Shown here: piece after piece, positions 25,173-27,404 of the stretch
Numbering within the stretch: position 1 is the first letter of the stretch
How the letters are laid out: each line of letters begins with the position of its first letter
From: Bdellovibrionales bacterium
GTDB lineage: Bacteria; Myxococcota; XYA12-FULL-58-9; SYDY01
Direction of reading: 5' to 3'
Assembly (NCBI GenBank): GCA_005801425.1
Contig: SYDY01000115.1
Location: 1-64,000 of the forward strand
DNA: 64,000 nucleotides
Notes under the pieces: model-generated
What the model was told of the DNA's origin: nothing
The model's input: only the letters and a program-made list of their open reading frames with translations
Database searches by the model: none
Position numbers and translations under genes: made by a program

Positions 25173-26225
25173 CTATTTCAACAACAATTTTCGAATATCT
25201 GAGTTCTGCATCAGAACATGAGAAACACGTACCGTGCCTGCGTTGTTCAGGTGAAGACGATCCGCAAATTCCGTGGCCGGGAAATGATCAGAACTCAAAT
25301 CAACCCACAACACATTCTGCGAACGTGCCATCGCTTCAACCTTCATGCGAATATGTGTTAAATCGCGCAGGAACTGCACTTGATTCATCCCTTGCCCGAC
25401 ATACCATTCAATGTTGACAGGCAACCACACCACAGCGGCCTTTTGAGGCCGGCGACCCAGGGCATGAATCACATCTTCGGATCCAAGCATACTCGGACTC
25501 TCATTGCTTGTATTCACATCGCACTGCTGGAATAAACGACACATCATCCAAAGTCGCTTCTGATCCCATTGTGTCCCTGCGGAGAGCACCGCTTTATGAG
25601 GATCACATCCTCCCAATGCCGGAGACATCGCAACTCCCGTCGTATACTGCTCAGCAGTACGCCCCATCGCAGCCCGTATTTTTTGCTGCATCAAGATCAC
25701 AGGCCATAGCATGTTGTACCACTTCAAATGTGAGATAAGCAGCGTACTCGTTTTGGGTGCCAACGTAGGAAGCTGTGATTTAATTGCCAAGGCGGCGTTA
25801 CGATCTCCAATAAGATCATAAATCCACATCCACTCCATACGACTTTGGGCTTCAAGAAAATAGACAGGATTCAAAAGCCAAATCATTGGAATATCGCTTT
25901 TCAGTGCATTCACTATTTTAGGAACGAGAAGCGCATAAGAAAACGGTCCCATGCCTGATCGTGCGAGCAAATGGGCAGGTCGTAGGCTTTGATCACTTAT
26001 CGAATTGATCGCAGATGGCACATTGCATGAATCGCAGGATTCCGAGCTTCCCAAGAAAACAGCAGCGTTCTGTTCGTGAGCCAAAGCAAGCGCGGTATCA
26101 ATATCTCCATAATAAGATAAAACGGGCTTTCGTTTTCCAAGCTCCACGGATGGCCAGAAAATGACTGTCATCACAACGCCGACACAAGAAAGCGCCAGCA
26201 CCCACGTCGGGTTAAAACGTCGCAT
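25173..26225 (-). CDS. DltD-like SGNH acyltransferase, membrane-anchored (terminal transferase of acyl-shuttle module)
   Basis: 350 residues from ATG 26225. An N-terminal helix (WVLALSCVGVVMTVIFW) anchors an extracytoplasmic domain. AVFLGSSESCDS (Ser60/Ser61) is the DltD/SGNH nucleophile block, and FADRLHLNNAGT near the C-terminus supplies Asp322 and His325, giving a plausible Ser-Asp-His triad. By analogy with DltD it would move an acyl group onto a cell-envelope polymer. The start overlaps the end of the 38-residue microprotein by 14 bases. The frame extends upstream to a TTG at 26294 inside the microprotein, but that is less likely. The acceptor polymer is unknown. Confidence 0.75.
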   Translation of the reverse strand: MRRFNPTWVLALSCVGVVMTVIFWPSVELGKRKPVLSYYGDIDTALALAHEQNAAVFLGSSESCDSCNVPSAINSISDQSLRPAHLLARSGMGPFSYALLVPKIVNALKSDIPMIWLLNPVYFLEAQSRMEWMWIYDLIGDRNAALAIKSQLPTLAPKTSTLLISHLKWYNMLWPVILMQQKIRAAMGRTAEQYTTGVAMSPALGGCDPHKAVLSAGTQWDQKRLWMMCRLFQQCDVNTSNESPSMLGSEDVIHALGRRPQKAAVVWLPVNIEWYVGQGMNQVQFLRDLTHIRMKVEAMARSQNVLWVDLSSDHFPATEFADRLHLNNAGTVRVSHVLMQNSDIRKLLLK

Positions 26226-26328
26226 ACACAAACTCTGCCCGTGATGACCCTGTGGCAAGGAACAAATAAGTGCACCACAAAGACGTGACCACAATCATCC
26301 AGCCCATAGATATCAAAAAAGGCTTCAT
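26212..26328 (-). CDS. DltX-like membrane microprotein with C-terminal acyl-shuttle motif FVYATF
   Basis: A 38-residue frame, easily missed. ATG at 26328 overlaps the MBOAT stop codon (ATGA), and TAA at 26212 lies inside the start of the DltD-like gene. The product starts MKPFLISMGWMIVVTSLWCT, then YLFLATGSSRAE, and ends FVYATF. It has one membrane helix, with the C-terminus predicted outside. In the Dlt pathway the microprotein DltX carries a C-terminal hexapeptide of the form FxYxxF whose Tyr receives the acyl group from the MBOAT and hands it to DltD. Motif, topology, position at the very C-terminus and gene order all match. Confidence 0.75.
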   Translation of the reverse strand: MKPFLISMGWMIVVTSLWCTYLFLATGSSRAEFVYATF

Positions 26329-27404
26329 GCGAACATCCGAAGGATGGAATTCCAGGCTTGCGGCAACGGATATGAGAAAAGTATCCACCCCAACGTAACG
26401 GACAAAAATGTCATCACGATAGAAAGAATATTCCACACCGACCCTTGAAAAAAGAATTTACCCAAAAAGAGACGTTTGCAAATGCTATGAACAACAAGAA
26501 GCATGCCGTGATAAAAACCCCATGCTAAAAAATTCCAAGCAAGGCCATGCCATACACCACAAATGGACATGCTCACGATCAACAGCACGATCTTATATGC
26601 AAAACCTCGGCGACTCCCGCCCAATGGAATATATAAAAAATCACGGATCCAAAACGAGAGTGACATATGCCAACGACGCCAAAATACTGAGATGTTTGGG
26701 GACATATAGGGATTGTCAAAATTTTCAGGCAACGTGAAGCCACACAAGCAACCCAGTCCAATCACAAGATCGGTATAACCTGCGAAATCACAATACAATT
26801 TGATACTGTTGGTGACCGCTGAACGCCAAAGAAACAATGAAGGTGCCACTTGCAAATCGTAGACACTTAAAACCCATGGCGCAACGCCATATCCAATCAA
26901 CAAAAAGACAAGGCCTGATATCAAACGACGCATCGCTTGAGCTGCATCAGGCACATGCCACGCAAAATGCTCTGGTCGTGTGATGGGCCCCATCACCACG
27001 ATGGGAAAAAATAACATTTGTAACATACGCTGCTGCAAGGACATCAGAGGAATTTTTTGAACTTCGACAGCAAGCGCCACTGCACGAAAACCAAAATAAG
27101 ATAAACTGGGCAAAAATGGCGCAACAAGCATCATGTCGTTGCGTAAGGCAGTATACGCAATAACAAGCAATGAGGAAGCCACTACAAGGGGCACTTGGCA
27201 CCATGGAACATACGACAACAACGCAATGAGCGTGCCTAAACCTATGTAAATAAAACCCGTTTTAGGACCACAAAAAGCAAAAAGAATATACAGCGAAGCT
27301 GCTAAAGCGGGTATACCACGCCATGGCGGAACAAGCCGTCCTTCTACCAACCCCACGGTCAAAAACAGAAGCCACACGACAGGGTTGGTAAGAAGTTCTA
27401 ACAT
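26325..27404 (-). CDS. MBOAT-family membrane O-acyltransferase (DltB/AlgI-like)
   Basis: 359 residues, about ten to eleven membrane helices. The MBOAT signature region is ISVFWRRWHMSLSFWIRDFL followed by YIPLGGSRRG. The catalytic His is His286 in CGVWHGLAWNF, and a second conserved His is at 299 (FYHG). Such proteins take an acyl group from a cytoplasmic thioester and present it outside. It is shorter than many AlgI proteins and has no C-terminal shuttle motif of its own (it ends ILRMFA); the motif is on the overlapping microprotein. No dltA/dltC-like ligase or carrier gene is nearby, so the acyl donor is unknown. Confidence 0.88.
   Translation of the reverse strand: MLELLTNPVVWLLFLTVGLVEGRLVPPWRGIPALAASLYILFAFCGPKTGFIYIGLGTLIALLSYVPWCQVPLVVASSLLVIAYTALRNDMMLVAPFLPSLSYFGFRAVALAVEVQKIPLMSLQQRMLQMLFFPIVVMGPITRPEHFAWHVPDAAQAMRRLISGLVFLLIGYGVAPWVLSVYDLQVAPSLFLWRSAVTNSIKLYCDFAGYTDLVIGLGCLCGFTLPENFDNPYMSPNISVFWRRWHMSLSFWIRDFLYIPLGGSRRGFAYKIVLLIVSMSICGVWHGLAWNFLAWGFYHGMLLVVHSICKRLFLGKFFFQGSVWNILSIVMTFLSVTLGWILFSYPLPQAWNSILRMFA

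Follow-up and report, generated by a model that had tools for sequence, protein, structure and literature searches.

A three-gene MBOAT-microprotein-SGNH module with a candidate acyl-tyrosine shuttle on a separate DltX-like microprotein in a Bdellovibrionales bacterium

The minus strand of the analysed DNA (64,000 nucleotides of a Bdellovibrionales genome, here called the window) carries, from 27404 to 25173, three overlapping genes encoding an MBOAT acyltransferase, a microprotein with the C-terminus FVYATF, and an SGNH protein. The three products probably constitute a single membrane complex comparable to DltB-DltX-DltD, which would be fed by acyl-CoA and in which the tyrosine shuttle would be housed on a separate, DltX-like microprotein. 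Acyl-tyrosine chemistry and the shuttle built on it are established for DltX and PatA (PMC12148441).

The coordinates of the three genes (Table 1), re-checked by sequence and translation, agree with those of the initial annotation, and the gene order and overlaps bear out its description of a three-gene module. The ATG of the microprotein is located within an ATGA that also contains the stop codon of the MBOAT gene, while the ATG of the SGNH gene overlaps the Tyr35 codon of the microprotein (TATG), hence the overlap between the latter two genes. From this arrangement the genes look translationally coupled. A tRNA-Ala gene lies directly downstream of the module on the opposite strand, and no ligase or carrier gene is present within or adjoining the module.

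Table 1. Features of the module, in positions of the window.
Feature	Position	Strand	Details
MBOAT acyltransferase	26325..27404	-	359 aa; basis: PF03062, LTA_dltB, PDB DltB, AF2/Foldseek, invariant His
Microprotein	26212..26328	-	38 aa, MKPFLISMGWMIVVTSLWCTYLFLATGSSRAEFVYATF; basis: translation, chance test, recurrence of the C-terminal motif in other split loci
SGNH acyltransferase	25173..26225	-	350 aa from best start ATG 26225, stop at 25173
ATGA overlap (4 nt), MBOAT stop / microprotein start	26325..26328	-	
14-nt overlap, microprotein end / SGNH start	26212..26225	-	
PLGGSR stretch, MBOAT residues 260-265	26610..26627	-	position of DltB carrier-docking helix HC

The MBOAT protein scores 53.4 bits against PF03062 (gathering cut-off 27) and matches the DltB sequence in the PDB with an E value of 1e-26, its score against the LTA_dltB equivalog (TIGR04091) being 146.7 bits and thus under the cut-off of 375. 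The AF2 model (mean pLDDT 69) has DltB (6bug) as its best solved Foldseek match, with a TMq of 0.70, and the chain, whose C-terminus reads ILRMFA, ends at the same point as DltB. Two histidines, His246 (26669-26667) and His286 (26549-26547), are invariant in the MBOAT alignment.

The microprotein consists of a start with Lys2, one hydrophobic membrane helix and a tail terminating exactly in FVYATF, in which Tyr35 is the putative shuttle residue. It is the only one of 937 frames of at least 25 aa in the real window to end in F.Y..F. Forty first-order Markov shuffles of the window yielded two frames with this ending among 39,809 small ORFs, or 0.05 per window, and no hydrophobic helix in either. 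In addition, pN/pS values of 0.18-0.31 are obtained for the orthologous microproteins of three sister genomes (L051-L053). No Pfam or NCBIfam model matches the microprotein; against Pfam DltX (PF12459) there is no match at E values up to 10, and two canonical DltX controls match the same model at 6e-16 and 7e-8. Its description as DltX-like is nevertheless upheld by the single membrane helix, the C-terminal F-x-Y-x-x-F and its encoding together with MBOAT and SGNH genes, though the protein is outside Pfam DltX.

MBOAT matches occur in 132 of the 195 genomes of the phylum and, as had been noted for many Gram-negative systems, most of them are fused to the shuttle motif, among the matches listed. 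The window genes might be regarded as a fused MBOAT that was split by a recent frameshift, or only by a sequencing error, with the microprotein as the severed tail, and the microprotein frame does stay open upstream into the MBOAT gene, from 26436. The tail lengths speak against this: among 72 aligned MBOATs, the 55 of the fused type extend 68-95 residues past the end of the window MBOAT, against 0-8 for the 5 Dlt and 11 further split ones. With 68-95 residues added in fused relatives and only 38 in the microprotein, one helix is absent altogether and not just shifted into another frame; on these lengths a frameshifted fused MBOAT was rejected. Furthermore, the same genome has a second MBOAT (L061) of the fused type, which groups with the fused clade, whereas the window MBOAT lies outside it, and split genes recur with the break at the same point, all of which leaves a severed tail highly improbable. 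In the core-column tree the Dlt MBOATs form a clade (100/94) and 54 of the 55 fused MBOATs group together, the window MBOAT falling in neither group and having a single fused Butyrivibrio sequence as its neighbour, both on long branches. An AU test rejects neither a single fused clade (p 0.333) nor a position of the window MBOAT inside the DltB clade (p 0.233), and, the tree being unrooted, it does not settle whether a separate or a fused shuttle is ancestral.

Within the phylum, at least six further genomes have split triads, which in five of them (G117, G120, G121, G122 and G167) stand alone; the sixth (G006) is considered below. On the Bacillota side, the triads L091-L094 and those of G439 (L115, L117) have the order SGNH-MBOAT-microprotein, and in Vulcanimicrobiota (L032, L103-L107, L109-L111) the order is microprotein-SGNH-MBOAT, one further locus (L108) being incomplete at a contig end. 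The microproteins of the split triads end in F/Y-x-Y-x-x-F. A plasmid of Klebsiella electrica (L099:1981-6039) harbors a dlt-like operon flanked by transposase genes, in which a 40-aa “hypothetical protein” ending in FEYQKF is encoded between dltD and the MBOAT gene. Homologous loci without the small frame or its terminal motif had been named beforehand as counting against the proposal. The plasmid dlt operons L096 and L097 do lack an adjacent microprotein, with no such frame upstream either; no other case was seen, and all remaining complete split loci inspected have a motif-ending microprotein with the Tyr, a count that is not independent of the search because the microproteins were found by their motif.

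The SGNH protein contains an N-terminal helix, a GSSE motif (Ser60/Ser61) and a C-terminal D-x-x-H, the Asp322 and His325 of which are invariant in the SGNH alignments. Against Pfam DltD (PF04914) it scores 22.6 bits, with a cut-off of 22.7, and over its C-terminal part only. The AF2 model is poor (mean pLDDT 49.5), so its weak matches to GDSL/DltD folds, including DltD 6o93 at E 0.41, are not taken as proof. No PDB entry matches the sequence, and no relatives were found at E 0.001 among the 195 genomes of the phylum. The original label of a DltD-like SGNH protein is therefore too firm and counts as borderline: the score stays 0.1 bit short of the DltD cut-off, and in several other triads the SGNH partner matches GDSL/SGNH models or nothing.

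The cytoplasmic face of the MBOAT bears on the nature of the acyl donor. DltB docks DltC through helix HC, with Met302, Val305, Ile306, Met309 and Lys312, plus Arg317 on the next helix (PMC11035591). In place of this helix the window MBOAT has PLGGSRRG, and the longer carrier-docking segment of DltB-type MBOATs is absent. Of 21 stand-alone triads with a seen microprotein, 19 (the window and 18 of 20 others) have PLGG[SN] at the entrance on the cytoplasmic side; PLGG is likewise present in nearly all fused MBOATs, but in none of the six MBOATs sited with AMP-binding and carrier-protein genes. Since the sequences are related, this pattern is a correlation and not a set of independent counts. It is also imperfect as a guide to the donor, as the stand-alone triads L110 and L111 of Vulcanimicrobiota are without PLGG, and a strict rule tying PLGG to the lack of a carrier fails in both. 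A carrier-like ORF lies in the L111 region, at a distance of some 4.8 kb from the MBOAT gene and behind a mutase-like gene; none was seen near L110. Judged from sequence, the PLGGSR stretch may contribute to donor choice.

A genome devoid of dltA and dltC had been claimed initially, and the search is in accordance with this: outside 72 kb of masked sequence, the best dltC match has an E value of 0.15, and no dedicated dltA was found, all dltA-like matches being under the cut-off. The masking (N) affects contig C118, where a 24,653-aa “open frame” (G000:C118:14051-88009) is an artefact of it. The best dltA-like match, at 255.6 bits against a cut-off of 559.85, is an A-domain on contig C36 that adjoins an 85-aa carrier gene. 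The accompanying claim that acyl donor and acceptor are probably new was too strong, as the cytoplasmic entrance of the MBOAT resembles that of ordinary fused acyl-CoA-type MBOATs; owing to this resemblance an ordinary acyl-CoA, such as acetyl-CoA, would be the simplest donor.

The module could on the other hand be a true Dlt-type system whose aminoacyl carrier protein is encoded elsewhere in the genome, for example by the paired A-domain and 85-aa carrier genes of C36. A precedent exists within the same order, where G006 (L055:2130-6428) has a single operon for an amino-acid adenylation (AMP-binding) enzyme, an 85-aa carrier, an MBOAT, an FVYRGF microprotein and an SGNH protein, with a formyltransferase-like gene coming next. 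The C36 pair, however, belongs to a cluster (L062, G000:C36:3000-15000) with genes for an acyl-CoA dehydrogenase, a flavin monooxygenase/halogenase-like protein, KAS-III-like proteins and an aldehyde dehydrogenase, which, from its gene content read by eye, probably makes a halogenated pyrrole; as dedicated dltA and dltC these two genes were therefore rejected. With the best dltC match as weak as stated above, and with the window MBOAT lacking the docking segment and differing there from every one of the six carrier-linked MBOATs, a carrier-fed system is considered unlikely. An acyl-CoA donor is the best guess, because the PLGG pattern, the lack of a good dltC match outside the masked 72 kb and the position of the C36 pair in another cluster all point that way.

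With such a donor, acyl-CoA would deliver its acyl group (an acetyl group would be the simplest assumption) to the cytoplasmic tunnel of the MBOAT, and with the help of His286 the enzyme would transfer it to Tyr35 of the microprotein, in the FVYATF tail outside the cytoplasm. This tail would then swing to the SGNH protein, where Ser60 or Ser61 may take over the acyl group for esterification of an envelope or extracellular polysaccharide. Alternatively, the microprotein may have only a structural or regulatory role, and the MBOAT may transfer the acyl group without an intermediate, either to the SGNH protein or onto a lipid-linked sugar. A regulatory role has been proposed for DltX as well (PMC11035591). 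However, every split triad inspected retains the Tyr, with the motif placed exactly at the C-terminus, and PatA is acylated on this same motif (PMC12148441), which makes a purely accessory microprotein quite improbable and favours the shuttle.

The module shares with the Dlt core DltB-DltX-DltD, which carries out D-alanylation of teichoic acids, an MBOAT of DltB length and fold, a separate one-helix microprotein ending in FxYxxF and an SGNH partner with GSSE. It differs in having no adjacent or dedicated dltA/dltC, in the replacement of the carrier-docking helix by PLGGSR, in a microprotein outside Pfam DltX, in its non-Gram-positive host and in its gene order. With PatA-PatB (peptidoglycan O-acetylation) and the fused MBOAT-SGNH systems of AlgI/WssH type it has in common the PLGG[SN]R entrance, a presumed acyl-CoA donor, the FxYxxF Tyr shuttle and an SGNH partner, whereas in those systems the MBOAT itself carries the motif, on two additional helices. 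Gram-negative dlt-like operons (L099; G006/L055) also combine an MBOAT, an FxYxxF microprotein and an SGNH protein, but they contain AMP-binding and carrier genes and an MBOAT without PLGGSR. The best reading of these sequence comparisons is that the module would work in a Dlt-like manner at the outer face of the membrane and in a PatA/AlgI-like manner at the inner one. As it does not pass the defining tests of either, it is assigned neither to the Dlt systems nor to Pfam DltX.

In the open-licence literature a separate Tyr microprotein has so far been described only for the Dlt pathway, an earlier description elsewhere being possible. According to the 2025 PatAB paper, MBOAT/SGNH pathways other than Dlt have the shuttle motif fused to the MBOAT and are without a DltX-like microprotein (PMC12148441), a rule which the triads contradict in at least three phyla. 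They suggest that a separate shuttle needs no carrier-protein donor, hint at a group of small genes missed here by Pfam and NCBIfam models, and offer natural material for finding out where in the MBOAT the choice between carrier protein and acyl-CoA is made. That they represent a third, widespread way of building MBOAT-SGNH acylation systems, with MBOATs fed by acyl-CoA and the shuttle Tyr on an unannotated microprotein of its own, is put forward tentatively, as a possibility rated somewhat below even. Should the tree be rooted among such triads, the separate shuttle would be ancestral, and fusion as in PatA/AlgI and feeding by a carrier as in the Dlt pathway would both be derived states.

All three modules are joined in a one-chain SGNH-MBOAT-FVYFKF protein of Vulcanimicrobiota (L113, L128; G378:C25), which counts in favour of the proposed complex. 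The Vulcanimicrobiota frames at the MBOAT in L113 and L128 measure ~850-930 aa, and about 20 further frames of 850-1080 aa are listed, the one that was read having the composition just given. A separate MBOAT frame (L056:3790-4857) ends in APMFSRF, with Phe at the position of the shuttle Tyr.
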